Origin: a virus
Length of the DNA: 34,985 bases
Strand: one strand, 5' to 3'
IMG/VR virus record: IMGVR_UViG_3300010413_000212
Span: 1-34,985 of that record
The notes under the pieces were generated by a model. That model did not search any database. It was not told the origin of the DNA and worked only from the letters and a program-made list of their open reading frames with translations. A program made the translations under genes and the position numbers. Positions 4,150 to 34,334 of the stretch are shown one piece after another. Positions within the stretch are counted from its first letter, which is position 1. Each line of letters begins with the position of its first letter.

Positions 4150-5836
4150 TGTAGAATTTTTAACCGAAGCGCGGAAAAGACTCAAAATACTTTCCGACGC
4201 CGATCAGGAAAACAAAGATAATTTTGTAGAGGACATGAAGTTCGCATTCAATATTGAGGAAGGTCACTGGAATACTGAGGATATAAACGAACGCGATGAA
4301 GAGGGACGTCCTCATCTTACCATGAATAAATTGTCAAAATACGTGGCAATTGTTGTTAATTCCATAAAAACTCAACCTGTATTAGATGAAATCATCCCTG
4401 TTGACGATCAGGGTGATATTGCTATCGCGCGAGTATATAACGATTTAATCGAGCATATAGAATATCAGAGTGAAGCCGAGAATGTATACTCGCAAAGCGC
4501 GGAACATGCCATTGCGGGCGGTTTTGGATGTTGGAGGATATTAACCCAATACACTGACGATGGATTTGACCAGGAAATTATTTTAAAGTCTATAGACAAT
4601 CCTCTTATGGTTTATCTTGATCCGAGAAGAAAATTCGCGTTCATACGTGAAGTTATGTCTATAAGGGATTTCGATGAACAATATCCTGATGCGGATAGAT
4701 CGGATTTTGAGTCAGATGCTGGGGGAGATGTTTGGGAATTGTGGTATGAAGGCGATAAAATTTCAGTCGCGGAATATTTTGTTAAAGAACCGTATACACG
4801 GAAGATTGTTCTCGCGGAAGCGGAAGATGGAAGACGTGCTATAATTGAAGAAACGTCTGAAAATAAAGAGGCGTTAAAAGCGTTTCGTATCATAAAAGAA
4901 CGTAAGATCCAGTCTCATAAAGTAATGTGGTATAAGATAACAGGAACGGAAATACTTGAGAAGAAAGAATGGCCGGGGAGTGAAATCCCAATTATTGAAG
5001 TTGTAGGGCATGAGGTGAAATTAGAGGGCAAAAGTCATAAAATGTCGCTTATAAAAGACGCTAAAGATCCTATGAGGATGTATGATTACTGGATTACTTC
5101 AATGACTGAAAAAATTGCCCTTGCTCCGAAAGCTCCATATATGGTGACTCAGCAGCAGATTTCAGGGTTTGAAGAATTTTGGAATAATGCCAATACGAAA
5201 AATCTTCCATATTTGCCGTATAATCCATCGTCACAGGGGCCTCCCCAGAGAACTCCAGCAACACCTATAGACCCTGGCGCGATGGCATTGCTCCAGTTGG
5301 CAAATAATGACATTAAAGATGTACTTGGTATGTATGAGTCAAGCATGGGTATGCCGAGCAATGAAAGATCGGGGAAGGCAATTAACGCGAGAGCCGCAAG
5401 ATCAGACCTTCAAACTTATACGTTTCAAGATAATTTGAAGAAAGCAAGAAGGAAAACAAAAAAAATGCTTATAGAGCTTATCCCGAAAATTTATGATAAT
5501 CAAAGGGTTGTAAGGCTTAGAAATAAGTCTGAGCAGGACGGGCAGGGAGCGTTTTTACAGTTAAATTGGCCTACAATGACCGAGGGAGTGCTTATGAATG
5601 ATTTGAGTGTGGGCAAGTACGATATAAGAACGAAGAGCGAGATGACTCCATCACGAAGACAACAGACTTTGGATACTCTTTCTCAATTTATGCAGTATGC
5701 TAAAGACTTCGCTGGCCCGATACTGGCTGAGGCGGTTAAATATGTGGATGCGCCTGGGGGTGAGGAGTTGTCGAATACAATAAAAGCAATGATGCAGCAG
5801 GGAGCGCAGAATGGATTACAAAAACCTACAACTTGA
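4142..5836 (+). CDS. Portal protein, P22 gp1-like
   Basis: A 564-residue protein starting at GTG (4142), eight bases inside the terL end, with AAGGGG upstream. It forms the dodecameric portal through which DNA enters and leaves the head and on which terminase docks. The N-terminal pattern (helical start, then GHW, GRPHLTMNKL and VVNSIKTQP at about residues 38-82) and the mid-region (EHAIAGGFGCWRI; NPLMVYLDP) are characteristic of P22-type portals. The C-terminal Gln-rich helical end is shorter than the long barrel of P22 itself (725 residues). Confidence 0.9.
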   Translation: MDNVEFLTEARKRLKILSDADQENKDNFVEDMKFAFNIEEGHWNTEDINERDEEGRPHLTMNKLSKYVAIVVNSIKTQPVLDEIIPVDDQGDIAIARVYNDLIEHIEYQSEAENVYSQSAEHAIAGGFGCWRILTQYTDDGFDQEIILKSIDNPLMVYLDPRRKFAFIREVMSIRDFDEQYPDADRSDFESDAGGDVWELWYEGDKISVAEYFVKEPYTRKIVLAEAEDGRRAIIEETSENKEALKAFRIIKERKIQSHKVMWYKITGTEILEKKEWPGSEIPIIEVVGHEVKLEGKSHKMSLIKDAKDPMRMYDYWITSMTEKIALAPKAPYMVTQQQISGFEEFWNNANTKNLPYLPYNPSSQGPPQRTPATPIDPGAMALLQLANNDIKDVLGMYESSMGMPSNERSGKAINARAARSDLQTYTFQDNLKKARRKTKKMLIELIPKIYDNQRVVRLRNKSEQDGQGAFLQLNWPTMTEGVLMNDLSVGKYDIRTKSEMTPSRRQQTLDTLSQFMQYAKDFAGPILAEAVKYVDAPGGEELSNTIKAMMQQGAQNGLQKPTT

Positions 5837-6011
5837 TTGGAACGGTGATACCGGCAATCTTGATTATATGGGGCAGCATATAGACACTTACGCGTCTACG
5901 GCTGACAAATACTGGAAAATTACTAAATTCACATGGGATGTGAATGGGAATATGACTGAGAAGGTATGGATAGAGGGTGTCTGGGATGATAGGGCGACGA
6001 TATTCTTATGA
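5811..6011 (+). CDS. Small conserved phage protein (66 aa), YWKITKF type
   Basis: Overlaps the portal gene by 26 bases and the next gene by four. It is an aromatic, beta-rich peptide with the pattern ADKYWKITKFTWDVNGNMTE and a C-terminal WDDRATIFL. Similar short proteins follow portal genes in other phages, where they have no assigned function. The context suggests a head or connector component. No catalytic motif is visible. Confidence 0.75.
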   Translation: MDYKNLQLDWNGDTGNLDYMGQHIDTYASTADKYWKITKFTWDVNGNMTEKVWIEGVWDDRATIFL

Positions 6012-6229
6012 TGCATGTAATGCTTGAAAGAGAAAGGCCATTTTTTTTAGATAAAAATGAACTTCTTTACATCCGAGGTTATTGGATTGATTTTGATGCT
6101 GTGTATCTTGGGGATGGCATTATACAGAAACAGGGGTGGTGGAAAAGAAAAGCAAAACTCAAAAGATATAAGAAATACCCAGTAAGGCGAATGAACGGAA
6201 AAGGGTTTAGGCATATAAATTTTAAGTGA
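6008..6229 (+). CDS. Small basic protein (73 aa), unknown function
   Basis: Begins at an ATGATG overlapping the previous stop. The N-terminal half is hydrophobic/aromatic (LLYIRGYWIDFDAVYLG) and the C-terminal half strongly basic (KRKAKLKRYKKYPVRRMNGK), suggesting nucleic-acid or capsid-interior contact. No family is recognised. It belongs to the tightly packed group between portal and scaffold. Confidence 0.6.
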   Translation: MMHVMLERERPFFLDKNELLYIRGYWIDFDAVYLGDGIIQKQGWWKRKAKLKRYKKYPVRRMNGKGFRHINFK

Positions 6230-6236
6230 GGTTAAT

Positions 6237-6434
6237 ATGGATGTAAATAGTGAATTGGCTTATAAGAAATTTTCAGGATATGAGTCTCTGGAAGGTTTGC
6301 AGGAAGGGGATATGGTGGAGATAAAAATTAAAAGAGGCGGTATTGAACAAATTGCCCTTGAATGGGAACCAAATGAAGGTGAAGAAGTAAAATCAGGCAA
6401 TATAATATTTCAAGTACAAACAGGAGCGATATAA
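6237..6434 (+). CDS. Small acidic beta protein (65 aa), unknown function
   Basis: Starts seven bases after the previous gene, behind AGTGAGG. The sequence has alternating beta-type segments and an acidic middle (EWEPNEGEEVKSG). The last A of its TAA stop is the first base of the next ATG. No function is recognised; it is probably virion-associated by position. Confidence 0.6.
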   Translation: MDVNSELAYKKFSGYESLEGLQEGDMVEIKIKRGGIEQIALEWEPNEGEEVKSGNIIFQVQTGAI

Positions 6435-6748
6435 TGTTTGAATACAAAACAAGTGCAAGTGAACCGGATGATATAATAATTGACGGAGATGCCTTATACG
6501 ACGTTAATACAAGAAGCGTTAGAATTAATGTTAAATACAGATTTGGCATAGCTGACTTGGGTGGAAGTTGGGAATATTGGGAGTACGAAAAAAGAGAAGC
6601 TATTTCAGGCGTTGATACTAAGAATATGGCGAATGTCACATCTGAAATACAAGCTCTTTACACTCAATATTCAGCTATTTATACAGATCATTCGAGTAAT
6701 TTAAGTAAAGTAAAGAATTTTGATGGTGCAGTTATCCCGGTTCCGTAA
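6434..6748 (+). CDS. Structural-region protein (104 aa), unknown function
   Basis: Directly coupled to the genes on either side by one-base overlaps. The N-terminal 60 residues look beta-rich (DDIIIDGDALYDVNTRSV) and the C-terminal 40 helical (TKNMANVTSEIQALYTQYSA), a small head-domain-plus-helix layout. No family is recognised. Its place just before the LamG-like protein suggests a linker or adaptor for the appendage. Confidence 0.6.
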   Translation: MFEYKTSASEPDDIIIDGDALYDVNTRSVRINVKYRFGIADLGGSWEYWEYEKREAISGVDTKNMANVTSEIQALYTQYSAIYTDHSSNLSKVKNFDGAVIPVP

Positions 6749-7452
6749 TGGCAGTATTATTTCAATGGGAAGGTACATATGATGATACAACCGCTGATTC
6801 CGGGGAGACAATATCAGGAACGGGATTAGCAGCCGGGGGCGGTGATGCTGGTTCAGATACGAGTAGTTTACAAGATTTGGGAGACAGAATGGCAATCACT
6901 GGCCTTGGAGCTGTTTCCAGTATTCTTGAACAGAGTGGAGACGCGGTTTTAAATTTTAATCAAGGAACTATTTATTTTAGATTCTTTTTTGATACAAATA
7001 ATGTTACAAGAAATATATTTGGATTTTATACAGGCGGTGGAAACACTTATTTTTATGGTCAATACAATAGTGCTAATAGATTATATTTATATATGCAGGA
7101 TGCAAGTTCGCATTCTGTAATAGCATATAGAAGTTGGACTCCAACAGCGAGCCAATTTTATGATGTTAGATTAACATTTGATAATGATTCAGATAATAGT
7201 GTTGGAGTTTCTTTTGATGGAGATAGTTTCGCGATAACATCTCAATCCGGTGCTGAAAGTAATTTAGTAATATCTGAATTTGACAGTACTTATTTTAACA
7301 TAGGAACCAGGGATAATTTCGACACTTTTGATGGTGAAATAAGTAGATTTTTAATAAGTGATGTATATGAAGATTTAACTTTAGGCGCGGCAGCGGGCGG
7401 GGCTGAAAATTCTATGTATTATTTAATTAATTCGAGTGGAGGATGCCAATGA
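6748..7452 (+). CDS. LamG/concanavalin-A-like jelly-roll virion protein
   Basis: A 234-residue protein with the pattern of a LamG-like jelly roll. It has strands TIYFRFFFD and IFGFYTGGGNTYFYGQYN, then RLYLYMQD, FYDVRLTFDND, VGVSFDG and the typical terminal segment FDGEISRFLISDVYEDL. Such folds bind glycans or mediate adhesion. The N-terminal 60 residues are Gly/Ala/Asp-rich and look like a linker. There is no signal peptide, so a virion appendage is more likely than a secreted protein. It overlaps the next appendage gene by ten bases. Confidence 0.65.
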   Translation: MAVLFQWEGTYDDTTADSGETISGTGLAAGGGDAGSDTSSLQDLGDRMAITGLGAVSSILEQSGDAVLNFNQGTIYFRFFFDTNNVTRNIFGFYTGGGNTYFYGQYNSANRLYLYMQDASSHSVIAYRSWTPTASQFYDVRLTFDNDSDNSVGVSFDGDSFAITSQSGAESNLVISEFDSTYFNIGTRDNFDTFDGEISRFLISDVYEDLTLGAAAGGAENSMYYLINSSGGCQ

Positions 7453-8987
7453 TTTGGATGGATGTTGACGCGACATTAGCTGAAGTTCCAATTACATATA
7501 CAGCTATCATTGATGATACTGATTTTAAAACCAGAGAAGATGGGCTGACTTATAATCAGGCTGGACTTGATTTGGTATGGAATTTTATCACAACCGCTGG
7601 AGCACAGACTCAAACGGCTGTAACTCCAACAACCGGAGGCGGAGATTATGATTGGACTAACCAGGGGAATGGACAATATTCTATAGGTATTCCAGCTAGT
7701 GGAGGAGCAAGCATAAATAATGACACTGAAGGTTTTGGATGGTTTTCAGGATTTGCCACCGGTGTATTACCGTGGTCAGGGCCGATAATAGGATTCAGGG
7801 CGAGCGGCACTAATGATAAACTTATAGACTCTGCTTATTCCGCGACAAGAGGTCTTTCGGGTACGGCACTTCCGGATGCCGCTGCTGATGCGGCGGGGGG
7901 ATTGCCAATAAGTGATGCCGGAGGTCTTGATCTTGACGCGCAAATAGGCACTGACATTGACGCTATATTAGTTGATACTAATTCATTAAATGATACTAAA
8001 ATACCGCAAACATTAAATTTAACAGCGAGTGGGAATATAGGTATAGACTGGGCAAATGTGGAGAATCCTACAACCGCGGTTGATTTAAGCGCGACTGACA
8101 TTCAATTATGCGATACTACTACGGATATCACAAATCAGGTAGATGCAAATATTACTCAAATTACAGGCAACAGTGCGGCGGCTGCAAATTTAAGAAGTTC
8201 TTGTGATAATTATAGTGCTACAAGAGGACTCGCCGGTACAGCTCTTCCCGCAGCGGCGGCGGATGCGGCAGGGGGTATCCCGATTAGCGATGCTGGAGGG
8301 TTAGATCTTGATGCATACGTGAAAAGATATAATATAAATTGTGAGACTAATGTATTCGCTTCTATAGACCAGGCCGATACTGTTAGCATACTTGTGTCAA
8401 TGCACTTATGGACTTCAAGAGGTTCTATCCCAACGGCTGCAGAAATAACCCCCGGAACGGTCACAATATATAGGAAGGCGATAGGCGGAACTTCTTTCGT
8501 GACTATCGTAAATGGCGCGGCGTGCAGTGAGGCCGATGGAATAATTTATTACCAAGAAATTTTTGATAGTTTGACGGGATATGCCGAAGGCGATTCAATA
8601 CTTGTGAGATTCAAGGGTCAAGCTGTAGTTATAGACGGTATAACCTATGCCATATCCGATAGCACATGGGGCATTTATAGATATGGCGAAATAAGGCAAA
8701 CTATGAGGGGTACGGATGCGGCGAATATACTTGCAGAAGTTGTGGACGACGCGACTAAAATTGATGCGAGTGCTTTAAATGCTTTAACAGCTAAAACTCC
8801 ATCGAAAGATTATCTAACTGGAACTAACAATGCTGACGGCGATATCGAAGCCGATGAAATGACTGGCAATATTTCAGCTACATTGAGTGCCGAAACAATC
8901 ACAGCGATAGCAGATGAGGTAAGTACTGATAGTTTCGGTACAGTAATTAAAAAGTATTTGGTAGCGTTCATAAACGCTTTTAAATAA
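7443..8987 (+). CDS. Repeat-stalk appendage protein (514 aa)
   Basis: Contains two copies of a ~35-residue Ala/Asp/Gly unit, with cores ATRGL[SA]GTALP and DAAGG[LI]PISDAGGLDLDA, at about residues 136-175 and 260-295. Other phage fibre or stalk proteins carry the same unit, often in longer arrays. The N-terminal ~130 residues (DDTDFKTREDGLTYNQAGLD) resemble an attachment domain, and a beta-sandwich-like segment (about 300-420) follows the second repeat. The two repeats have diverged at DNA level, unlike other repeats in this genome. It lies between portal and scaffold, where P22 has no appendage gene. Confidence 0.65.
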   Translation: MPMIWMDVDATLAEVPITYTAIIDDTDFKTREDGLTYNQAGLDLVWNFITTAGAQTQTAVTPTTGGGDYDWTNQGNGQYSIGIPASGGASINNDTEGFGWFSGFATGVLPWSGPIIGFRASGTNDKLIDSAYSATRGLSGTALPDAAADAAGGLPISDAGGLDLDAQIGTDIDAILVDTNSLNDTKIPQTLNLTASGNIGIDWANVENPTTAVDLSATDIQLCDTTTDITNQVDANITQITGNSAAAANLRSSCDNYSATRGLAGTALPAAAADAAGGIPISDAGGLDLDAYVKRYNINCETNVFASIDQADTVSILVSMHLWTSRGSIPTAAEITPGTVTIYRKAIGGTSFVTIVNGAACSEADGIIYYQEIFDSLTGYAEGDSILVRFKGQAVVIDGITYAISDSTWGIYRYGEIRQTMRGTDAANILAEVVDDATKIDASALNALTAKTPSKDYLTGTNNADGDIEADEMTGNISATLSAETITAIADEVSTDSFGTVIKKYLVAFINAFK

Positions 8988-11113: not shown

Positions 11114-11659
11114 ATGGGTGTAGTTTATTTAGATGATGGAAACGATGATGGTACTGTCTTTGGCCAGGACTCATCGGAAAAAATAGCGTTTTACGGCGCG
11201 ACTGCTACAACACAGCCAGCCACTATTTCGACTGTGGATACCACTACGGTTACGACTGTAGATACTACTACTATTACGACCGTGGACACAACTACGATAA
11301 CGACTGTGGATACTACTACGGTTACGACTGTAGATACTACTACTATTACGGCTGTTCAAGTAGCGACTGCAACTACAACACATTTAATAGCGGCAGCTAA
11401 TTTATTGATTACTGATTCACAATTGCAGGCTGAAACTATTAACAAACTTGTTGCTGATTCAAGGGCACAGGCAGTGGCCATAAATACGTTGATTACTGAT
11501 TCACAATTGCAGGCTGAAACTATTAACAAACTTGTTGCCGATGCTCAATTGAGCGGGGAAACAATGAATAAAATTGTTGCTGATTCAAGAGCTGCGCATG
11601 TCGCGACTAATGCCCTTATAAGCAGATTGCAGACGCTTGGTTTAATCGCGTCGTCATAA
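11114..11659 (+). CDS. Repeat-rich head decoration/fibre protein
   Basis: A 181-residue protein starting behind AAGGAGG. The N-terminal 35 residues (YLDDGNDDGTVFGQDSSEKI, then AFYGAT) match the short domain that begins many phage head-fibre or decoration proteins encoded next to the coat. Residues ~38-80 are five 8-residue units of the type TTVDTTT[VI]. Residues ~90-165 carry two copies of LITDSQLQAETINKLVAD, helical and probably coiled coil. DNA repeats are close to perfect (50 exact bases at 11405-11454 and 11489-11538). Probably a trimeric fibre on the capsid surface. Confidence 0.65.
   Translation: MGVVYLDDGNDDGTVFGQDSSEKIAFYGATATTQPATISTVDTTTVTTVDTTTITTVDTTTITTVDTTTVTTVDTTTITAVQVATATTTHLIAAANLLITDSQLQAETINKLVADSRAQAVAINTLITDSQLQAETINKLVADAQLSGETMNKIVADSRAAHVATNALISRLQTLGLIASS
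11234..11538 (+). repeat. Tandem DNA repeats within the head-fibre gene
   Basis: Units of 24 bases coding TTVDTTT[VI] form a higher-order repeat in which about 45 bases recur 72 bases downstream (starting at 11234 and 11306) with one mismatch. Further on, a 50-base block (11405-11454) recurs exactly at 11489-11538, 84 bases apart. Synonymous changes are nearly absent, implying recent duplication. Confidence 0.85.
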
Positions 11660-11674
11660 AAAAAGGAGAATTCT

Positions 11675-13003
11675 ATGGGAGCAACTTACAAGACGCCTGC
11701 ATCGTTCGAAAAAGGACGGTCATTATTTATAGCAACTGCGTCATATGAATCCGTGAAAATGGGTTTTGCCTATGCACTGGCTTTAACTGTAGCTGAATTG
11801 ACAAAACAGGGGATACCATACGAACTTGGATTGATGGAGGGAAATTGTCATGTGGATGATGGCAGAAATACTTTAGTGCGCGATTTTCTTAATGGAAATT
11901 GTACGGATATGTTATTTATTGATGCTGATATGATGTGGTCCGCGGGGGATGTAATTAAAATTCTTAACCATAAGGATGAATTAGTTTGCGGGGCGTATCC
12001 AAAAAAATGTACTCCGCATTCCTATCCTATTGGAAGAATTTTTGAAACTCGTCCTAATGGACTTCTGGAGGTGTCTTATGCTCCCACTGGATTTATGAGA
12101 ATAAGACGGAGTGTATTTGAAAAATTATTACCATTTCAGTCTAAACATGGGAAAGAGAACCCTACCGCTGTGTTTTTTGAAAGAAGATTTAACGGTGCGA
12201 CAAGAGACGGGGGAGACGTTACTTTTTGCCGTAAATGGATATCCGCGGGTGGCAAGGTAGTTGTCGATCCTACTTTTGTCTTTTCTCATATAGGTGAAAA
12301 TAGATGGACTGGAAAATTTATTGATTATTTGTCAAAAGATGAAAATCGCGCGAAACATATAGCGGAATGTAAAGATCCATTGATTTATAAACCTATTATA
12401 CATGGGAGTAGAGATGTTATGCTCTCGCGTCTTATACAAAGAATACAGAGTGGAGATGATCAGCTTGATACGTTTATGCAGTTATCGGATTGTTATGGGA
12501 ATAAACCATGGGCGGCGACTGCTGAATATTTATATATTATGCACGAAATGGTAAAAAATTTACCAAGTGATGCTGTAATATTTGAAGCTGGCAGCGGATT
12601 AACCACGGCAGTTTTAGCGTCTACTGGAAGAAAAGTAATATCATTTGAAGAATTTAAAGAGTTTGCGGAAAAGACTAACGAATTGTTGGTTTCATGCGGG
12701 CTTGATGCGGAAATAAATATAGCTGGTTTTGATGATAAATGGTATAAAGCCAAAGAGAAAGCACGAACTATTAATGCGGATATGATGGTAATAGATGGAC
12801 CGAGAAGGTCTAACGAAAATGGTTCACGTGAAATTGATAGATTATGGCCTCTTAAAAACAAAGGTGTTTGCAAGACTAACGCTGTAGTTATAATTGACGA
12901 TATTGCGAAATTGGATGCCAAAGGTAAATTTGAAAAATGTGGAACAGAGAGACTGTTCGTTGCGGGAAGATTAGAAAGCGAGGAAAATAATGTTAGTAAG
13001 TGA
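11675..13003 (+). CDS. Glycosyltransferase fused to a SAM-dependent methyltransferase-like domain
   Basis: A 442-residue two-domain enzyme. Residues ~15-215 form a GT-A fold glycosyltransferase: a GRNTLVRDFL helix, DMLFIDADMMW with the DxD metal/nucleotide-sugar motif at 83-85, VCGAYPKK, and a late GGDVTFCRKW acidic motif. Residues ~275-440 resemble a class I methyltransferase: motif I VIFEAGSGLTT at 301-311, an acidic residue after strand 2 (ISFEE, 322-326), and MMVIDGP at 370-376. A linker joins them. It sits between capsid and tail genes, so glycosylation and perhaps methylation of virion proteins or of receptor-mimicking glycans is plausible. Substrates are unknown. It overlaps the next gene by 14 bases. 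Confidence 0.75.
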   Translation: MGATYKTPASFEKGRSLFIATASYESVKMGFAYALALTVAELTKQGIPYELGLMEGNCHVDDGRNTLVRDFLNGNCTDMLFIDADMMWSAGDVIKILNHKDELVCGAYPKKCTPHSYPIGRIFETRPNGLLEVSYAPTGFMRIRRSVFEKLLPFQSKHGKENPTAVFFERRFNGATRDGGDVTFCRKWISAGGKVVVDPTFVFSHIGENRWTGKFIDYLSKDENRAKHIAECKDPLIYKPIIHGSRDVMLSRLIQRIQSGDDQLDTFMQLSDCYGNKPWAATAEYLYIMHEMVKNLPSDAVIFEAGSGLTTAVLASTGRKVISFEEFKEFAEKTNELLVSCGLDAEINIAGFDDKWYKAKEKARTINADMMVIDGPRRSNENGSREIDRLWPLKNKGVCKTNAVVIIDDIAKLDAKGKFEKCGTERLFVAGRLESEENNVSK

Positions 13004-13643
13004 TGCGGTAGCAAGAGCATTGAGATTATGCGGAGTTAGAAATGTATCTGATTCTCAGCGTATTGCCGAAGGCATGAACGCCCTTAATTTAATGCTTAAA
13101 TCATGGGGAGAGCATATGCTTATACCGACGAAAGAAAGCTTTACATTAACGGTAGATACCTATGAATATACGATAGGAGATGGAGCGGATTTTGACACTA
13201 CGAGACCTATGAGTATTTTATCAGCGTATATTGAAGACAGCTCTGGATATGATTACGAGGTCGATGTTTCGATGTCGCCTATAGATTATGATAAAATTAC
13301 AGATAAAGATTATTCAACAAGACCTGAAAAACTTTATTACGCGGCTGAATTTAATAGCCAATATGGAAAAATCTACTTTGATTCAGCTCCAGATACGGCT
13401 GAAACTTTTTACCTTACATCGTTTAAAGGATATACGGAATATACATCGACAAGTGATGTTTTAGTACAGCCTCCTGAATATGAAAAAGCAATAATTTATA
13501 ATCTTGCCATAGACCTTGCTCCTGAATATAGTGTGCAGCTCATGCAGACTGTGATAAATCAGGCTATTATGTTAAAAGATGAGATTAGTAAAAAGATATA
13601 TAAAGTTCCAATGAGTAAAATAGATGGAGAACTTTTAAGATAA
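12990..13643 (+). CDS. Head-tail connector / tail accessory factor, P22 gp4-like
   Basis: A 217-residue protein. The N-terminal pattern VARALRLCGV, SQRIAEGMNALNLMLKSWGE and the following FTLTVDTYEYTIGDGADFDT with TTRPMSIL match the P22 gp4 family, which binds under the portal and closes the head after packaging. The spacing (helical ~50 residues, a beta domain, then helical C-terminus) and length agree with the family. It lies directly upstream of the gp10-like hub, the same order as in P22. Confidence 0.82.
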   Translation: MLVSDAVARALRLCGVRNVSDSQRIAEGMNALNLMLKSWGEHMLIPTKESFTLTVDTYEYTIGDGADFDTTRPMSILSAYIEDSSGYDYEVDVSMSPIDYDKITDKDYSTRPEKLYYAAEFNSQYGKIYFDSAPDTAETFYLTSFKGYTEYTSTSDVLVQPPEYEKAIIYNLAIDLAPEYSVQLMQTVINQAIMLKDEISKKIYKVPMSKIDGELLR

Positions 13644-16415
13644 ATGTATATTGGCGAAAGTTTTAAAATAAAACAATCTAAAGGATGGAACGCTAATCCT
13701 GACATAGATGACGTTTCTCCAGAGTCAATGATTGATTGTGAGAACATCAATATTCATCATGGGGGAAGACAGCCTCGTGGGGGATGTGAACTCGTTACGG
13801 ACATGGGGACTGAAGAAATAAGGGGAGTTTTCCAGTTTATACGTGAGAATGGAGACGTGGCAGAATCTTATGTAATTGACGAAGGTTCTGATAATATAGG
13901 AGATGAAGATGGAAATTATCTTGTTTCCGAAGGGTCTTATATTATGTGCTGTGAAAATGACGGTACAATATCGGTCAATTATGATACTGATTTAAAAACT
14001 GGCCTTACGGCTGATACTTATTATAACTTTGAAGTTTTTTATGATGAATTATATATATCAAATGGGGTAGACAAGCCTCAAGTATACGGGGCTAATTTAG
14101 ATTATACATGGGACATCGGTTCACCAATAGCGTGTACAGGCGCATTGGCAGGCGCGGCAGGGAATGTAGACAATGGTACTCATTCTTATAAAGTTACGTT
14201 TGTAACAGCCGATGGTGAGTCTTCAGCGGGAGTTAAGTCAAATGTCGTAACAGTAGCCAATAAGGCAGTAGATGGGCAGGTAAGTTTGACAAGTATACCG
14301 GTAGGCCCGTCAGGTACAACTTCAAGAAAAGTATATAGAACTGTCGCTGGTGACACTGGGGATTATTTACTTCTTACTACAATAGCGAACAATACAACTA
14401 CAACTTATACGGATAATACCGCAGACTCAGGACTTGGAGCGGCTTCTCCATCTACAAGCCTCGCTTTTCTACCGACTGACTGGCAGAGCAGTTGGCCTAA
14501 ATATTTTTTAAAACACGGCAGGGGATTGCATAAAAGATTATGGGCTTATGGGGTAGTGAGTTACCCGAATGTGTTATATGCTTCATTGAATGGGCTTGCT
14601 GATTTCAGCGATTCCAATGTAACTACTGTTAAAATATTATCCGATGAAATAACAGGCGCCGTGGATTTTGGTGGAAATTTGATTGTATTTAGCAGAGACA
14701 AAACTTACATATTGGATGATGCTGCCATTAGTGTATCGAATTGGGGTTATGGCGGCGGAGCAGCTCACCAGAAACTAATAGTCAAAACCCCGAACGATGT
14801 TGCCGTGATGGATGAATCAGGAAATATTTTTTCTATAAGGGCTTCTCAACAATATGGCGATTATGAGATTGCGTCTTTAACTAAACCTCATTACATAGAT
14901 AAATGGATAGATGAGAATGTCGATTTAGAACGAATTGAAAAATTTCATGGTATTTATGATCCATTTTTAAGGGCTATTAAGTGGTTTATGGTTTCTTATG
15001 GTCATAGCTCTCCTGATATTTGTCTGGTATATTTTATAGATTACGCGATGTGGACGCGTCATAATTTTTTAAATATATTTGAAACTAATATTTATCATCT
15101 TTGTTCGGGACTAATAAAAATAAATGACGCGGTATGGAAAATTTATACGGGTAATTCCAATGGAGAAATTTATAGTCTTGAATCTGAAACTTTAACAGAT
15201 AATGATGTGTATTATAGAAAATATTTTAAAACGCCTTTAATTTCTATGAATAATTCCCGTATGTCAAAAATGTTTGATAGAATAATATTGGTTATTAAAC
15301 CACAGGGTCAGGAAAAATTAGTGGTTAAAGTTATCGTGGATGATTCGGATATAAATGATTATCAAATAGTAATGTCCGGCCGAAGTGATTTTATGCAGAA
15401 TGTTGTAATGTATTCCGGTGTGACCGGATTAAGATTACAATTGGAAATTTCAAGTTATGATGATAATGATTTTTTTATAAGTGATATAATGATAGATTAT
15501 AAACAATTGGGATATATTGATAATTATATTTATGTGCAAACTATTGCTGGTTTAAATAAAGGATATATTTTTTCCGGTTATGCGGCAATTGCTTATTTAC
15601 AGGATTGCGATGAATATGATTCAGTTGCAAATAGTTGGATTAGCATGACTGACATGGATACTACTGGTAGAATATATTTAGCAGCTTCAACAATTTTAAA
15701 TAAAGGATATGTTTATGGAGGCTGGGACCCAACGCTTTTTCTGAGAAATAATTGTGATGAATTTGATCCTTCATTGAATAGTTGGTTGGCAAAAACTAAT
15801 ATGATAAGTGGGAGAGCTTATCATTCTGCCTCTACAATTTTAAATAAAGGATATGTTTATGGCGGGAATGATGGAAGTTACACTAGAGCTTGTGATGAAT
15901 ATAATTCAATAGATGATGAATGGACGAACAAAGCAGATATGCCTGTCTCGGCAAGAGGATTGTTAGCAGCCTCTACAATTTTAAATAAAGGATATGTTTA
16001 TGGCGGTACAACAGGATCTGCTACTCAAGATTGCGATGAATATGATTCAGTTGCAAATAGTTGGGCAAGTATGACAAATTTACCTTCTCCTGCAAGATCT
16101 TATCCGGGTGGAGCAACTATTTTAGAAAAAGGTTATATATTTGGTGGACTTTACGGCACTACTTATTTACAGGATTGTGATGAATTTGATTCTATAGGCG
16201 ATAGTTGGGCAAGCAAAACTGATATGATTTTGCCGGGGAGAAGAATATACGCAGCCTCTACAATTTTAAATAAAGGATATGCATATAATGGAGAATCGCT
16301 TGTTATTACTCTTTTGCGTGATTGTGATGAATATGATTCAGTTAATGATAGCTGGGTCAGCAAGGCAGATATACCATTGCCCGCGAGAAAAAGTTCTGCT
16401 GGTACAACTATTTAG
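13644..16415 (+). CDS. gp10-like tail hub fused to a C-terminal six-bladed kelch propeller
   Basis: A 923-residue protein starting immediately after the gp4-like gene. Residues 1 to ~630 look like the P22 gp10-type packaged-DNA stabilisation hub, with a Phe/Tyr-rich beta-propeller (SYPNVLYASLNGLADFSD is typical) and an inserted fibronectin-like segment at ~165-255 (GTHSYKVTFVTADGESSAG). From ~636 there are six kelch units of ~47 residues. Each has K-G-Y-x-[YF]-x-G, then D/R/N-x-C-D-E-[YF] and a Trp six residues later. The last unit breaks off so that its end can complete the first blade (velcro closure). A receptor-binding propeller on the hub is not part of P22 gp10. Confidence 0.75.
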   Translation: MYIGESFKIKQSKGWNANPDIDDVSPESMIDCENINIHHGGRQPRGGCELVTDMGTEEIRGVFQFIRENGDVAESYVIDEGSDNIGDEDGNYLVSEGSYIMCCENDGTISVNYDTDLKTGLTADTYYNFEVFYDELYISNGVDKPQVYGANLDYTWDIGSPIACTGALAGAAGNVDNGTHSYKVTFVTADGESSAGVKSNVVTVANKAVDGQVSLTSIPVGPSGTTSRKVYRTVAGDTGDYLLLTTIANNTTTTYTDNTADSGLGAASPSTSLAFLPTDWQSSWPKYFLKHGRGLHKRLWAYGVVSYPNVLYASLNGLADFSDSNVTTVKILSDEITGAVDFGGNLIVFSRDKTYILDDAAISVSNWGYGGGAAHQKLIVKTPNDVAVMDESGNIFSIRASQQYGDYEIASLTKPHYIDKWIDENVDLERIEKFHGIYDPFLRAIKWFMVSYGHSSPDICLVYFIDYAMWTRHNFLNIFETNIYHLCSGLIKINDAVWKIYTGNSNGEIYSLESETLTDNDVYYRKYFKTPLISMNNSRMSKMFDRIILVIKPQGQEKLVVKVIVDDSDINDYQIVMSGRSDFMQNVVMYSGVTGLRLQLEISSYDDNDFFISDIMIDYKQLGYIDNYIYVQTIAGLNKGYIFSGYAAIAYLQDCDEYDSVANSWISMTDMDTTGRIYLAASTILNKGYVYGGWDPTLFLRNNCDEFDPSLNSWLAKTNMISGRAYHSASTILNKGYVYGGNDGSYTRACDEYNSIDDEWTNKADMPVSARGLLAASTILNKGYVYGGTTGSATQDCDEYDSVANSWASMTNLPSPARSYPGGATILEKGYIFGGLYGTTYLQDCDEFDSIGDSWASKTDMILPGRRIYAASTILNKGYAYNGESLVITLLRDCDEYDSVNDSWVSKADIPLPARKSSAGTTI
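15603..16290 (+). repeat. Near-identical DNA repeats in the kelch region of the hub gene
   Basis: A 29-base block coding TILNKGYVYG is identical at 15690-15718, 15834-15862 and 15975-16003, with its first 22 bases again at 16260. A 36-base block coding DCDEYDSVANSW is identical at 15603-15638 and 16029-16064. Blades differ mainly in the loops between these blocks. Confidence 0.85.
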
Positions 16416-16423
16416 GAGGATTT

Positions 16424-16666
16424 ATGGCTAATAAAGAAATAAAAGATTATGATCAGGTCGCGAGTTCAACACTGGATGACTTACTGGTTTGTCAGCAATC
16501 TGGTGTTACGAAAAAACAAACTCTTTCTCAGGTTTTTTCCAATGTTGCTAATTTAACGGCGGCAAGCACGCTGGACGGAACCGAAAGAATTTTCATAAGG
16601 GCTTATGGGGTAAATTCTTATATTACATCTGATGATTTAGCGGATTATATTTTGAGTGCTTTATAA
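16424..16666 (+). CDS. Short fibre-anchor domain protein (80 aa) without an adhesin
   Basis: Starts behind AGGAGG. Its first 40 residues (KEIKDYDQVASSTLDDLLVC, QQSGVTKKQTL) align with the N-terminus of the next gene (NEITDYTAVVTPATTDKFIC, QQRGTTKQITA). Residues 42-80 look like a second copy of the same ~40-residue fold. Such modules attach fibres to tails. Here the protein stops where the neighbour continues into kelch repeats, so it may be an adaptor or a fibre that has lost its head. It is linked to the next gene by a one-base overlap. Confidence 0.65.
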   Translation: MANKEIKDYDQVASSTLDDLLVCQQSGVTKKQTLSQVFSNVANLTAASTLDGTERIFIRAYGVNSYITSDDLADYILSAL

Positions 16667-17763
16667 TGGCAATAAATGAAATTACAGATTATACAGCAGT
16701 TGTGACACCAGCAACTACGGATAAATTCATCTGTCAACAACGCGGGACTACAAAGCAAATAACGGCCGCGGATATGTTTGATGTAATAAATTATTTTAAC
16801 AACGTTTCTTCTGACGATTTGTATACAGTCGATACTTTTTTGGGTACTCAGTCAGGAAGCGCGGTCAAGATAACAATTTTGCAGCTTATTACGTATATGA
16901 AAACGAAAAGTTATGCTTGCATTTATGGTGGTTATGATCAATATGGGGTGACACAAGATTGTGACGCTTATCATGTATCAACTAATACATGGGCAAATCA
17001 AACGTCAATGTCAACAGCGGCAAGATTTGAATTGGCCGCCTCTACAATATCAGGTAAAGGATATATTTACGGAGGGTATGCGGCTGCTAATTCTATATTA
17101 TGTGATCAATATAATTTATCGGGAGACGCATGGACTTCTAAAACGGATTTAATTAGCGCAAGAGCTTTTTTGGCAGCGTCTACCATAAACGGGTATGGGT
17201 ATATTTATGGCGGACAAGGAACATCTGTTTTGGATGATTGTGACGAATATGACGCCACGGGTAATAGCTGGACAAATAAGGCCGATATGCCTGATTATGG
17301 CAGGATACAGCATGCGGCTTCCACGATATTAGACAAAGGCTATACATATGGAGGTTATGCTGGAGCAGCGCTCCAAGATTGTAACGAATATAATCCTTCA
17401 ACAAACGCATGGGCTAACAAAGCAAGCTTTACAAGTATTGCTAAGTATTGGCTTGCGGCTTCATCTATGCATGATAAAGGATATATTTATTGTGGATATA
17501 ATTCAGGGTCATACGGACATTGCGATCTTTTTAATTCTGTTACTAATACATGGACTTCGAGAAGGGCAAATTCTATATCAAGATATGGGATAGCGGCTTC
17601 ATCAATATTGAATAAAGGTTACATATACGGAGGTCTTGGAGGCGATGGTTCATATATGCGTACATGCGACCAATTCAAACCTTCAGCTAATTATTGGTAT
17701 AATAAAGCAGATATCCCAACAAATGCAAGGTATGGCATGGCGGCGTCAACTATATATGTATAG
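16666..17763 (+). CDS. Tail fibre with six-bladed kelch receptor-binding domain
   Basis: A 365-residue protein. The N-terminal ~85 residues are the anchor domain shared with the upstream 80-residue protein. From ~residue 86 six kelch units follow, each with a [KY]-G-Y-x-Y-x-G-like strand, a conserved Cys-Asp and a Trp (first: ACIYGGYDQYGVTQDCDAYH). The end ARYGMAASTIYV supplies the closing strand. Each blade carries one Cys at the same place, as in the hub protein's propeller. Kelch propellers bind proteins or glycans; the likely role is host recognition. Confidence 0.75.
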   Translation: MAINEITDYTAVVTPATTDKFICQQRGTTKQITAADMFDVINYFNNVSSDDLYTVDTFLGTQSGSAVKITILQLITYMKTKSYACIYGGYDQYGVTQDCDAYHVSTNTWANQTSMSTAARFELAASTISGKGYIYGGYAAANSILCDQYNLSGDAWTSKTDLISARAFLAASTINGYGYIYGGQGTSVLDDCDEYDATGNSWTNKADMPDYGRIQHAASTILDKGYTYGGYAGAALQDCNEYNPSTNAWANKASFTSIAKYWLAASSMHDKGYIYCGYNSGSYGHCDLFNSVTNTWTSRRANSISRYGIAASSILNKGYIYGGLGGDGSYMRTCDQFKPSANYWYNKADIPTNARYGMAASTIYV

Positions 17764-17772
17764 GGAGGTTTT

Positions 17773-18411
17773 ATGTTAAATGATTTTTTAAAAGACCATC
17801 AATTATTTAATTCTGAATTTCAGGATGATTATTTTGTTACTCAAAAATCAGGTACTGATTGGGGACAATATAAACAGGCCATAAGAGAGCTTTATAAACG
17901 AGTACGGGGGCTGAGGGAGTCTTATTGTGATTACGAAAAGTTATTAGTGGAAATTGAAGAAAAAAAATTGATGAGTCAAGCCGAAGGATTCGAAGCTAAA
18001 TATGCCGAGATTGAACATCGTCGTAAAGTTATGCAGATAGAAGAAGCTGAGAGAGTCATTCGTGATACCGAAAGAGAATTTAAAAGATTTTACCAGCAAG
18101 CCTATATTTTAAAACAAAGAATTGGAGATGTTGATAGGGAAAGAAGGAAAAAGTTAGACCGGGAACAATTTGAATATAAAGTAAAAGAAATGCTTGTAAC
18201 TGATTGGATGCTTGACGGAAAGTGCTCTCGTGAAACGCATGAACTTTTACATTCGTTGCCTATTGATGTTAGGAAACAAATTATAGAAGATTCCAAAGAC
18301 AAGGAAACTCAATTCAATATGATTGAAGATTATATAAATAAAGATAATGATTATTTTAAAGATTGTAAGGAATTAGATATTGACATTAAATGTCTATTGA
18401 AGGAGGTGTGA
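17773..18411 (+). CDS. Long coiled-coil protein (212 aa), unknown virion or assembly role
   Basis: Starts behind GGGAGG. Nearly all residues are charged and helical. A coiled coil runs from about 30 to 140 (YEKLLVEIEEKKLMSQAEG and AERVIRDTEREFKRF), followed by a smaller helical C-terminus with SRETHELLHSLP. It occupies the place where P22-like phages encode tail-needle or ejection-assembly proteins, but I see no sequence signature of either. It overlaps nothing and ends one base before the next ATG. Confidence 0.6.
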   Translation: MLNDFLKDHQLFNSEFQDDYFVTQKSGTDWGQYKQAIRELYKRVRGLRESYCDYEKLLVEIEEKKLMSQAEGFEAKYAEIEHRRKVMQIEEAERVIRDTEREFKRFYQQAYILKQRIGDVDRERRKKLDREQFEYKVKEMLVTDWMLDGKCSRETHELLHSLPIDVRKQIIEDSKDKETQFNMIEDYINKDNDYFKDCKELDIDIKCLLKEV

Positions 18412-24625: not shown

Positions 24626-24813
24626 AAAAACGAGCTTTGAAATATAAGGATGAATCAATAAGAGAGGCTTTGAGAAAAGTAAATAATCCATGGGACATGA
24701 TAGCTTTTCTTTTTGTGTATAGATCAAAAGAAATAATGTTTATGATAATTCTTGTTTTACTTACGATTATTTTTTTTCCAGATCTTGTTAAGATAATTGG
24801 AGGTATATTATGA
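24622..24813 (+). CDS. Small membrane protein, second holin/antiholin candidate
   Basis: A 63-residue protein with a charged N-terminal 30 residues and one transmembrane helix at ~39-62 (MFMIILVLLTIIFFPDLVKI). It is coupled by four-base overlaps to the M23 gene and to the lipase gene. Topology, inferred from charge, is N-in. Function is assigned only from the lysis-cassette context. Confidence 0.6.
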   Translation: MKKRALKYKDESIREALRKVNNPWDMIAFLFVYRSKEIMFMIILVLLTIIFFPDLVKIIGGIL

Positions 24814-25499
24814 CCGATAAAGAACTCATGCAGGCTTGTATTAACGAATATGATGGAGAATATGGCAAAGTTAGAAAAGTATATGATTTAAGAAAGAAAT
24901 TTAAAAAAGATCATGTTCAAGGTTCTTTTGGGTGGATTGACGGTGAACCCGGCACTATTTATATTAACTTTTGCGGTAGTAAAGAATTGCTTGATTGGTG
25001 GGATAATTTTAAATTCTGGAAAAAAAATTTCTGGACAGAAAAGCAGTGGAAAAAAATTATACCTTACGAATGTATGGAGAGCAAGATTAAAGTTCATGCT
25101 GGATTCATAGGTCAGTGGAAACAAGTAAGATCAATTATACATGAAGAAATTCAGAAATATAACAAGATAATCGTAACCGGCCATAGTCTTGGTGGCGCGA
25201 TAGCTAATCTTTGCGTACTTGATATACAATATTTTAATCCAGACAAAGAATTGTCAGTTAGAACTTTTGGCGCACCTGATGTTGGGAATAAGTATTTTGT
25301 TAAAAGTTTTAATAAAAGAATAAAAAATTCAAAACAATATATAAATGGTGATGATATAGTTACTAAAGTCCCGCCATGGTTGTTCGGGTATAGAAAAGTT
25401 ATTAAAGTAATTAAGATAGGCGTAAGTCACTGGTATTTTAAAATATCAGGAACTCACCTCGACCACTACCCACGAAAATATATTAAAAATATGTCTTGA
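24810..25499 (+). CDS. Class-3 lipase-like alpha/beta hydrolase
   Basis: A 229-residue protein with hallmarks of the lipase class 3 family. It has VHAGFIGQW (residues ~95-103), the nucleophile elbow VTGHSLGGA (S126), RTFGAPDVGNKYF (152-163), YINGDDIVTKVPP with the acid at D182, and a C-terminal His (THLDHYP, H216 or H219). It acts on acyl esters, most likely phospholipids or outer-membrane lipids. No signal peptide is visible, so release through the holin is assumed. The start follows GGAGGT and overlaps the preceding gene by four bases. It is the last gene before the terminator at 25565. Confidence 0.82.
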   Translation: MTDKELMQACINEYDGEYGKVRKVYDLRKKFKKDHVQGSFGWIDGEPGTIYINFCGSKELLDWWDNFKFWKKNFWTEKQWKKIIPYECMESKIKVHAGFIGQWKQVRSIIHEEIQKYNKIIVTGHSLGGAIANLCVLDIQYFNPDKELSVRTFGAPDVGNKYFVKSFNKRIKNSKQYINGDDIVTKVPPWLFGYRKVIKVIKIGVSHWYFKISGTHLDHYPRKYIKNMS

Positions 25500-26665: not shown

Positions 26666-27049
26666 TTGAGAGATAAAGTATTGACAAATCATGTTGGAAA
26701 AGCGGTGAACAATAAAATAGATAAAATTAAATCTAAAATTCATTGGCTTTTTTGGGATGCTCTGATAATGGGTAATCCGTCTGTCGACACAAGGGAAAGT
26801 TTAAATCTTATAGAGAAAAAGATTAATAAAATATTGGAGGATGCCATGAATAACATTGAAGTAGACGAATGGGAAATATTGAAAGAAGACTTCGAGAGAG
26901 AACAGAAGTCAAAGGTCCCCGAACAATGTCGAGAATGTGAACATCTTGACGCCGAGATTGATTATTTTGCTAATCAGGAATTAACTCCGTGGTGTCAATT
27001 GCATGATGACACCTGTAAGGACAGTGTTAAAATTTGTGAGGAGGAATAA
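26666..27049 (+). CDS. Early protein with C-terminal Cys cluster (127 aa), nested start
   Basis: TTG start at 26666 behind AAAGGAG, the first gene after the early promoter. The N-terminal ~60 residues are basic and helical (VGKAVNNKIDKIKSKIHWLF). The C-terminal half is acidic with CRECEHLD, TPWCQLHDDTCKD and ICEEE, six cysteines that could bind metal. An in-frame ATG at 26846 has its own perfect GGAGG five bases upstream, so a 67-residue form containing only the Cys region may also be made. Similar acidic Cys-containing short proteins occur in phages without known function. Confidence 0.7.
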   Translation: MRDKVLTNHVGKAVNNKIDKIKSKIHWLFWDALIMGNPSVDTRESLNLIEKKINKILEDAMNNIEVDEWEILKEDFEREQKSKVPEQCRECEHLDAEIDYFANQELTPWCQLHDDTCKDSVKICEEE

Positions 27050-27050
27050 A

Positions 27051-27674
27051 ATGAAAATGCAAATTAAAAATTATATTACAAATGATATTATTTTTGAAGG
27101 TAGGTATATTAGCTTAAGATTAGCATTAGAAAAAAATAAGTTTATTCTTGAAGGTGCTTATCTTAGAGGTGCTGATCTTAGAAGTGCTGATCTTGAAGGT
27201 GCTAATCTTAGAGGTGCTTATCTTAGAGGTGCTGATCTTAGAAGTGCTGATCTTGAAGGTGCTAATCTTAGAGGTGCTTATCTTAGAGGTGCTTATCTTG
27301 AAGGTGCTGATCTTGAAGGTGCTGATCTTAGAAGTGCTGATCTTGAAGGTGCTAATCTTAGAGGTGCTAATCTTAGAGGTGCTTATCTTGAAGGTGCTTA
27401 TCTTAGAGGTGCTTATCTTAGAGGTGCTTATCTTGAAGGTGCTTATCTTAGAGGTGCTGATCTTGAAGATAAAATATATCTTAATATAAAAGGATCGAAA
27501 CATGAGTTATATTGCATTGGAAATCAAATACAAATAGGATGCATAGTTCAACCAATAGAAAAATGGGAGTGCAATTATAAAGAAAAAGGAAAAAATAATG
27601 ATTATACAGAGAAAGAAATAGAGGAATATTATAATTATATTCAAATATGCAAGAAATTAAATATGAAAGTTTAA
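27051..27674 (+). CDS. Pentapeptide-repeat protein (207 aa)
   Basis: The true start is taken as ATG 27051, five bases after GAGGAGG (in-frame upstream codons lack one). After ~30 residues (IKNYITNDIIFEGRYISLR) come about 22 pentapeptides of the type A-[DNY]-L-[RE]-[GS], then ~60 residues with KGSKHELYCIGNQIQIGCIV and a helical end. Pentapeptide repeats fold as a right-handed square beta-helix. Some members mimic DNA and inhibit or protect gyrase. Here the Asp/Arg pattern could do either. The C-terminal domain is of a kind seen on other phage pentapeptide proteins. Confidence 0.85.
   Translation: MKMQIKNYITNDIIFEGRYISLRLALEKNKFILEGAYLRGADLRSADLEGANLRGAYLRGADLRSADLEGANLRGAYLRGAYLEGADLEGADLRSADLEGANLRGANLRGAYLEGAYLRGAYLRGAYLEGAYLRGADLEDKIYLNIKGSKHELYCIGNQIQIGCIVQPIEKWECNYKEKGKNNDYTEKEIEEYYNYIQICKKLNMKV
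27145..27468 (+). repeat. 15-base tandem repeat coding the pentapeptides
   Basis: About 22 units of the form GGTGCT[GAT]ATCTT[AG][GA]A with almost no synonymous change. The regularity makes long open frames in other phases of both strands, which are not genes. Very prone to slippage and unequal recombination. Confidence 0.9.
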
Positions 27675-27908: not shown

Positions 27909-28475
27909 ATGTGCCAATTTAAATCGTTTATATGTACAGAGAAAAAATTATACGTAACAATTGGGGTCAATTCGCATGAAGACATAATTGATATTTTTAA
28001 TTTAAAAGATGATCCTGAAAAAATTGTAAGATTAGAATTGATACCTAATAAATATACTTTAGAGGAATTTAAGAATGTTGATAGATGGAAATTTAATGTT
28101 GATCAAGATAAACTTCCTGGTTGGTTTATTCCTATGGAATGGGAAGAAGAATGTAAGAAGTGGATGAAAAAGAATATTATTTTTGAAGATAAAAAAATAA
28201 TACATGAACAAATTGAAGTATATTGCGGCAAATGTGAAAAGATGGTAGGGAACGGGTCTATTACAATTTTATTGGGTTCAATATCAAAAGTCTATGGTTT
28301 TGCGTCAATAGCAGAAGTCTATGGTTCCGCGTCAATAGCAGAAGTCTATGGTTTTGCGTCAATATCAAAAGTCTATGATTCCGCGTCAATAGCAAAAGTC
28401 TGTGGTTCTGCATCAATAGCAAGAGTACGTGGTTCTGCATCAATTAAAACTGATTATAGAATTAAAGGAGAATAA
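27909..28475 (+). CDS. MCxF-type phage protein (DUF7666-like) with C-terminal 9-residue repeat solenoid
   Basis: Start chosen at 27909, six bases after AAAGGAG; the ATG at 27904 opens only a short frame. The N-terminal ~115 residues (MCQFKSFICTEKKLYVTIGV, then NSHEDIIDIFNLKDD and DRWKFNVDQDKLPGWF) match a recurrent phage family that I know only as of unknown function. From ~residue 127 there are six units of the type V-Y-G-[SF]-A-S-I-A-[EK], a left-handed beta-solenoid pattern. Other members carry the same kind of tail in variable length. Not an acyltransferase, since no catalytic loop is present. Confidence 0.75.
   Translation: MCQFKSFICTEKKLYVTIGVNSHEDIIDIFNLKDDPEKIVRLELIPNKYTLEEFKNVDRWKFNVDQDKLPGWFIPMEWEEECKKWMKKNIIFEDKKIIHEQIEVYCGKCEKMVGNGSITILLGSISKVYGFASIAEVYGSASIAEVYGFASISKVYDSASIAKVCGSASIARVRGSASIKTDYRIKGE
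28290..28451 (+). repeat. 27-base tandem repeat coding the 9-residue solenoid
   Basis: Six units of 27 bases starting at 28290, 28317, 28344, 28371, 28398 and 28425. They share GTCTATGGTT, then [TC][TC]GCGTCAATAGCA with few changes; the last two units drift most. Confidence 0.88.
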
Positions 28476-33611: not shown

Positions 33612-34334
33612 ATGTGTAACTTTTTAAGCATAGCAAGTGATCCTATTAAGGATAGGATATTATTTTTTGACGAAAAGATAAGAATGGAATTAGAAAAAAA
33701 TAATCCCAAAGAATACGATTATGATTCTCATAGTTCAGTAATTAACTATTTTGGGTATAGCGCAAAAGAGGAAGATAGATTGAATAAGTATGAATATAAT
33801 CCATTTACGGGAGTTTTTAAAACCGATCAGATAAATAACGAAATAGATGATAATAATAAAATAAGAAAATTTTGTAAAGAATATAATTTTGATAAAATTA
33901 TAGAAAGTGGATTATATGATCTTAATCTCTATAATTTGACCTCACTTCCTGAGAATATAAAATTTCCAGATACAATAAAAGGTTCTCTTTTTCTCAACAG
34001 TTTGACCTCACTTCCTGAGAATATAAAATTTCCAGATACAATAAAAGGTTCTCTTAATCTCAACAGTTTGACCTCACTTCCTGAGAATATAAAATTTCCA
34101 GATACAATAGAGGGTTTTCTTAATCTCTATAATTTGACCTCACTTCCTGAGAATATAAAATTTCCTAAAAAATTAAAAGGTTCTCTTAATCTCAACAGTT
34201 TGACCTCACTTCCTGAGAATATAAAATTTCCAGAGACTATAAAAAAGGTTCTTTATCTCAGTAATTTGACCTCTCTTCCTGAGAATATAAAATTAAATAA
34301 AAATATAAAATATATATTAAAAGAAGAGATATAA
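33612..34334 (+). CDS. MCxF-type phage protein with leucine-rich repeats (240 aa)
   Basis: The N-terminal ~95 residues (MCNFLSIASDPIKDRILFFD, DYDSHSSVINYFGYSA, NKYEYNPFTGVFKTDQIN) match a phage protein family that I know only as of unknown function. Then come six 22-residue units of the type [SN]LTSLPENIKFPDTIKGSLF, a leucine-rich-repeat pattern. Both this and the 28-kb gene begin MC-x-F and end in repeats, suggesting parallel design. The Shine-Dalgarno AAGGA is weak. The gene is bracketed by direct repeats copied from the following gene's start. Confidence 0.7.
   Translation: MCNFLSIASDPIKDRILFFDEKIRMELEKNNPKEYDYDSHSSVINYFGYSAKEEDRLNKYEYNPFTGVFKTDQINNEIDDNNKIRKFCKEYNFDKIIESGLYDLNLYNLTSLPENIKFPDTIKGSLFLNSLTSLPENIKFPDTIKGSLNLNSLTSLPENIKFPDTIEGFLNLYNLTSLPENIKFPKKLKGSLNLNSLTSLPENIKFPETIKKVLYLSNLTSLPENIKLNKNIKYILKEEI
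33935..34330 (+). repeat. 66-base tandem repeat coding LRR units
   Basis: Units begin at 33935, 34001, 34067, 34133, 34199 and 34265, each with TTTGACCTCACTTCCTGAGA or a one-base variant. The first three are nearly identical over their full length. Confidence 0.9.

Follow-up and report, generated by a model that had tools for sequence, protein, structure and literature searches.

How could a phage vary two neighbouring tail proteins that both end in kelch repeats, some of which are identical in their DNA? The question is raised by the IMG/VR record of an uncultured virus, 34,985 bases long (the window, by which we mean this whole stretch), whose portal is P22-like (P22_portal 5e-136). A hub ORF at 13644-16415 (923 aa) is followed by a fibre ORF at 16666-17763 (365 aa), with coordinates as in an earlier note on this DNA. 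That note suggested that kelch blades are shuffled by recombination, changing the host range without a reverse transcriptase. The genes and their parts are as follows.

12990..13643 (+): head-tail adaptor beside the hub, weakly P22 gp4-like (phrog_12985 6.7e-31; head-tail adaptor Ad3 1.8e-9; PF11650 P22_Tail-4 0.0059, under the cut-off)
13644..15551 (+): hub stem, 636 aa, nozzle-like in position (64% aa identity to the L007 hub stem; homologous hubs without kelch in other phages, L082-L088)
15552..15695 (+): hub kelch blade 1 (blade HMM)
15696..15839 (+): hub kelch blade 2 (blade HMM)
15840..15980 (+): hub kelch blade 3 (blade HMM)
15981..16121 (+): hub kelch blade 4 (blade HMM)
16122..16265 (+): hub kelch blade 5 (blade HMM)
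16266..16412 (+): hub kelch blade 6, end of the protein (blade HMM)
15828..15865 (+): 38-nt exact block over the a-b turn, blades 2/3 (second copy 15969-16006)
15603..15638 (+): 36-nt exact block, blade 1, strand c and c-d turn (repeated at 16029-16064, blade 4)
15690..15718 (+): 29-nt exact block over the a-b turn (other copies 15834-15862 and 15975-16003)
16424..16666 (+): 80-aa ORF, fibre-stem-like, without propeller or tip, kept in the L007 group (62% identity to L007 7834-8076; fibre N-terminus matched weakly, 1.5e-4)
16666..16905 (+): N-terminal stem of the fibre, 80 aa, by inspection (a similar stem bears other tips in L082 and L084)
16906..17049 (+): fibre kelch blade 1 (blade HMM, AlphaFold2 model)
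17050..17187 (+): fibre kelch blade 2 (blade HMM, AlphaFold2 model)
17188..17328 (+): fibre kelch blade 3 (blade HMM, AlphaFold2 model)
17329..17469 (+): fibre kelch blade 4 (blade HMM, AlphaFold2 model)
17470..17607 (+): fibre kelch blade 5 (blade HMM, AlphaFold2 model)
17608..17754 (+): fibre kelch blade 6 (blade HMM, AlphaFold2 model)
17773..18411 (+): conserved gene of unknown function downstream of the kelch genes, phrog_1409 (similar gene at this place in L008 and L064)

Two six-bladed propellers with one variable face

Both tail ORFs end in six kelch blades, as the earlier note had it. Specifically, Pfam kelch families match hub and fibre above the cut-off (Kelch_3 1.5e-24, Kelch_4 1.7e-24), and a blade HMM finds six blades in each. 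AlphaFold2, given an alignment of 25 sequences, models the fibre as a six-bladed, four-strand propeller (pLDDT 95, pTM 0.93), which superposes on the human kelch domains of KLHL17 and KEAP1 with TM 0.91-0.94 and rmsd 1.5-1.8 A. It replaced a first model from 11 sequences that had given TM about 0.25 and local matches only. The closed ring is thus modelled for the fibre, and the blade count of the hub comes from the blade HMM. The hub stem has no match in Pfam, and its best match in the PDB, a weak one (E 0.015), is a virion-associated phage protein. Each of the 25 related propellers that are complete has six blades, so that a changing blade number was not borne out; the count leaves out L013 and L045, which are cut by contig ends, and L063, which is distant and matches irregularly.

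Variation between blades is concentrated on one side of the ring. The columns with the highest entropy in a set of 132 blades are 10, 25, 57 and 58, all of them in the b-c and d-a loops (loops assigned from the AlphaFold2 model), and of the 40 positions that vary most, 36 lie in one or the other of these loops in the fibre model. Both loops open to the same side of the propeller because the strands alternate. When the ligand-contact residues of KEAP1 are taken from a published list (PMC4506958), the ten that can be mapped fall in blade columns 10, 23, 25, 57 and 58; they thus coincide with the variable columns (Mann-Whitney p=3e-7), with the reservation that positions are not independent. Replacement in the variable columns of the window's hub blades is modestly above synonymous change in the framework (0.67 vs 0.55), and in several other genes it is not above it.

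The hub blades do have the like framework and differing loops described earlier, and the surface has the look of a fast-changing recognition face. A fixed blade number together with fixed loops across relatives, and no variation among reads, had been named as the finding that would speak against host-range variation here: the blade number is indeed fixed, but the loop sequences are not. Our results suggest that this face of both propellers, which varies strongly from blade to blade and among relatives on a framework that stays alike, is a host-recognition surface that changes fast without a reverse transcriptase. It corresponds to the side on which human KEAP1 binds its partner. The variable face presumably binds a host receptor, and the window's own hub and fibre would be expected to vary within their population.

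Likeness among the hub blades and its origin

Exact blocks of 38, 36, 31, 29, 29 and 28 nt are found between blades in the hub DNA. Blocks of at least 17 nt span 263 of the 861 nt of the hub propeller, compared to no more than 175 nt across 300 synonymous-codon shuffles and no more than 123 nt across 300 back-translations. Coverage is a stronger statistic than the longest block, because the controls reach 35 nt (shuffle) and 39 nt (back-translation), against 38 nt in the hub. The exact repeats between hub blades are therefore real, and they exceed what synonymous-codon shuffles give. In the fibre propeller there is no exact inter-blade block of at least 17 nt. The same difference is seen in the codons: synonymous codons agree at 72% among hub blades, compared to 43% expected from codon usage, and at 47% among fibre blades, i.e. 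concerted evolution within the gene is visible in the hub and not in the fibre. The hub blades are 38-60% identical as proteins. Hub stems of the window and of L007 are 64% identical as proteins and their synonymous codons agree at 45%, which means saturation. With 72% agreement, the hub blades have therefore been homogenised or re-amplified after the split of the window and L007. In two T4-like phages, L012 and L048, a blade resembles those of sister genes about as much as those of its own gene. Their synonymous identity is partly due to codon usage (expected about 0.58 / 0.49 with own codons) and still exceeds this expectation both within and across genes.

Could unequal recombination between the repeats move or swap whole blades and so alter the host range, as first proposed? 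The exact repeats of the hub exceed chance, and runs of synonymous identity are longer than random in the hub (p=0.001) and longer than expected in genes of L010 and L046; this patchy similarity is consistent with some intragenic recombination. Moreover, in L048/L058 and in L012/L048 blades at the same position are not clearly closer than blades at different positions, despite flanks that are 82-95% identical. Against these observations stand the constant six blades and the lack of apparent exchange between hub and fibre in the window, where synonymous identity is 47.5% vs 42.5% expected and the longest common block has 15 nt. Recent hub-fibre exchange in the window was rejected on these values. 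Between L007 and L008, the closest contigs compared, no block has moved: loop codons are replaced in place, and donor tracts in the loci compared reach at most 12 nt. Recombination within the gene thus keeps some support from the original proposal, and the shuffling of whole blades is unlikely. Two further analyses were discarded, a blade tree of the window and L007 with poor support and a nearest-blade test that exceeded shuffles overall but was driven by consensus-like blades.

Replacements in the loops and modular tips

Recent change can be followed in two virus contigs, L007 and L008, which are 99.6% identical over 7628 nt. The 31 differences are distributed very unevenly, 19 in the 852-nt fibre propeller and 12 in the 6776 nt elsewhere (Fisher p=3e-11). 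Fifteen codons of the propeller are changed, all by replacement and none synonymously, and 14 of the 15 are in the b-c or d-a loops; no ORF of L007 2199-9176 has a synonymous difference between the two contigs. The changes are nearly all at codon position 1 or 2. Transversions make up 13 of the 19, an excess that is weak (p=0.04-0.08). A third contig, L009, bears the L007 fibre with one difference in the propeller. The hub propeller is near-constant in the three contigs, with three conservative replacements, so the burst belongs to the fibre and recent variation of the repeat-bearing hub is not shown by this trio. In contrast, the differences between the hub stems of L007 and L009 form a patch in which most changes are synonymous, such as ordinary homologous recombination would leave. 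It must be kept in mind that the evidence for recent change is a single pair of contigs, assembled from mixed populations.

The kelch parts also diverge faster than their surroundings and come and go as modules. The T4-like L048, L050, L054 and L058 have flanks that are mostly 82-97% identical around a kelch gene of 54-81% identity. L073 is without kelch genes at both slots, the hub homologues L082-L088 have the stem without kelch, and a different tip sits on a fibre of similar stem in L082 and L084. A tblastn search found no close cultured phage relative, and exact DNA matching returned no near relatives of the window. The sole match in genome contigs, L064, is filed as a Thermoplasmatales archaeon; at 5043-7569 two kelch genes of six blades each lie side by side in it, and the next gene is similar to window 17773-18411. 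L064 is phage-like and possibly mis-binned. The hub of L007 has a Laminin_G_3 (ConA-like) domain inserted in its stem at residues 111-260. The window hub lacks this domain; a LamG-like match below the cut-off is found in an ORF of its own at 6748-7452 of the window.

Another history would be that a blade was recently amplified in the ordinary way and its copies then diverged neutrally, the loops varying because they are unconstrained and host range playing no special part. Propellers are continuously re-amplified from single blades in all major lineages (PMC9218822), and replacement between blades at the variable columns is near saturation and in many genes not above synonymous change. However, relaxed constraint would hardly yield 15 replacement and no synonymous codons when the surrounding ORFs, about 7 kb, have no synonymous change, and the variable columns match the ligand face, not all loops. 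We regard this history as improbable. It is very unlikely that the difference between L007 and L008 is an assembly artefact, i.e. that a consensus of mixed strains exaggerates the burst. Both are metagenome contigs and the repeats of a propeller are hard to assemble, but both reading frames are intact, the replacements are confined to loops, L009 independently backs the L007 fibre, and mixed strains would still imply real variants.

Clustering of the changes in surface loops, mostly at codon positions 1 and 2 and with many transversions, could also be expected from a diversity-generating retroelement (DGR) or other adenine-directed mutagenesis acting on the propeller. DGRs mutate the adenines of a template (PMC10743442). 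In the changed stretch 145 of 152 adenines are unchanged, which argues against a DGR. A reverse transcriptase (PF00078) has no match in 20 records of up to 106 kb, some of which may be fragments, in agreement with the claim that none is involved. No template repeat, as a second copy, was found in L007, in L008 or in 20 kb of the L009 contig. Such mutagenesis is extremely unlikely here. Gene-conversion donors of the L008 loop changes were also looked for and rejected, since no tract is longer than 12 nt in the loci compared.

Strong diversifying selection, caused by variation of the host surface, is most likely what drives the diversification of the loops, although the one contig pair, L007 and L008, does not separate selection on ordinary mutation from a targeted process.

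Comparison with known recognition systems

In our opinion the kelch domains are probably modular receptor-binding propellers with a homogenised framework and a diversifying face, similar in working to the HNWD genes of Podospora anserina but with a fixed blade number and on phage tails. If this is true, both propellers would be exchangeable C-terminal recognition tips, one on the tail hub and one on the short fibre, and each tip would keep its ring of six blades. Occasional intragenic recombination or repeated re-amplification would uphold the likeness of the framework, which shows in the synonymous identity of blades within the window hub and, in T4-like phages, across sister genes. Diversification in place would affect the b-c and d-a loops, all on one face. 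A more far-reaching version makes the propellers the phage equivalent of variable immune receptors: a non-retroelement process targets the loop codons of the kelch ligand face, and recombination between blades and sister genes repairs the framework, giving rapid receptor switching at a fixed ring size. We consider this version unlikely.

In the HNWD genes (het-d, het-e and het-r) WD40 repeats are homogenised by concerted evolution, and a few codons per repeat diversify, in the d-a loop and the b-c turn of the interaction face (PMC1805685, PMC12222747). The variable columns of the phage blades are in the same two loops, and the variable codons occupy binding-face columns there. Repeat number in HNWD varies and rearranges (PMC2873952), whereas no polymorphism of this type is found among the 25 complete phage propellers. 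In addition, the phage domains are kelch folds on tail proteins, while HNWD are WD40 domains of fungal NACHT/STAND receptors. The phage tips are therefore likened to HNWD in strategy and are not members of the family. With the KEAP1/KLHL kelch domains they share the fold, and the columns of the KEAP1 ligand contacts match the variable columns of the phage blades; however, sequence identity is about 20%, and the eukaryotic proteins are adaptors with a conserved binding face. Phage kelch proteins are also present in the jumbo phages CBB, PhiPA3, Noxifer and EL, and their sequence matches to ours are weak (about 27% identity). According to a published account of CBB, its kelch proteins are clustered and one was detected in the virion; the passage on them describes neither a homogenised framework nor a variable face (PMC5259590). 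DGR targets such as tentaclins likewise serve phages in recognition and have a hypervariable surface (PMC10743442), but reverse transcriptase, template repeat and adenine specificity were not found in the sequence examined here. In recently amplified, highly repetitive propellers the blades are near-identical and traceable in DNA (PMC9218822). The likeness of the hub blades is also traced at the DNA level, but their proteins are 38-60% identical and one face is singled out to change. If our reading is correct, phages and Podospora allorecognition genes diversify the same two propeller loops, having arrived independently at fast-changing recognition. It would also mean that, in addition to DGRs, there is a path to receptor-binding diversity free of reverse transcriptase, used by viruses whose search for close cultured relatives gave none.

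Repeat proteins are unusually abundant in the record. About 21 near-identical 15-bp units occupy 27152-27464 within a pentapeptide-repeat ORF (27003-27674), so that tandem repeats fresh at the DNA level are present in this ORF too. A 66-bp tandem repeat in 5.7 copies lies at 33920-34294 in ORF 33612-34334; its units, LNLNSLTSLPENIKFP, have a leucine-rich look and no Pfam match. Other ORFs with tandem repeats are at 28278-28444 (27-bp units) and 11225-11588 (24-bp and 42-bp units). The phage also has a class 3 lipase-like ORF at 24810-25499 (PF01764, 1.4e-24).
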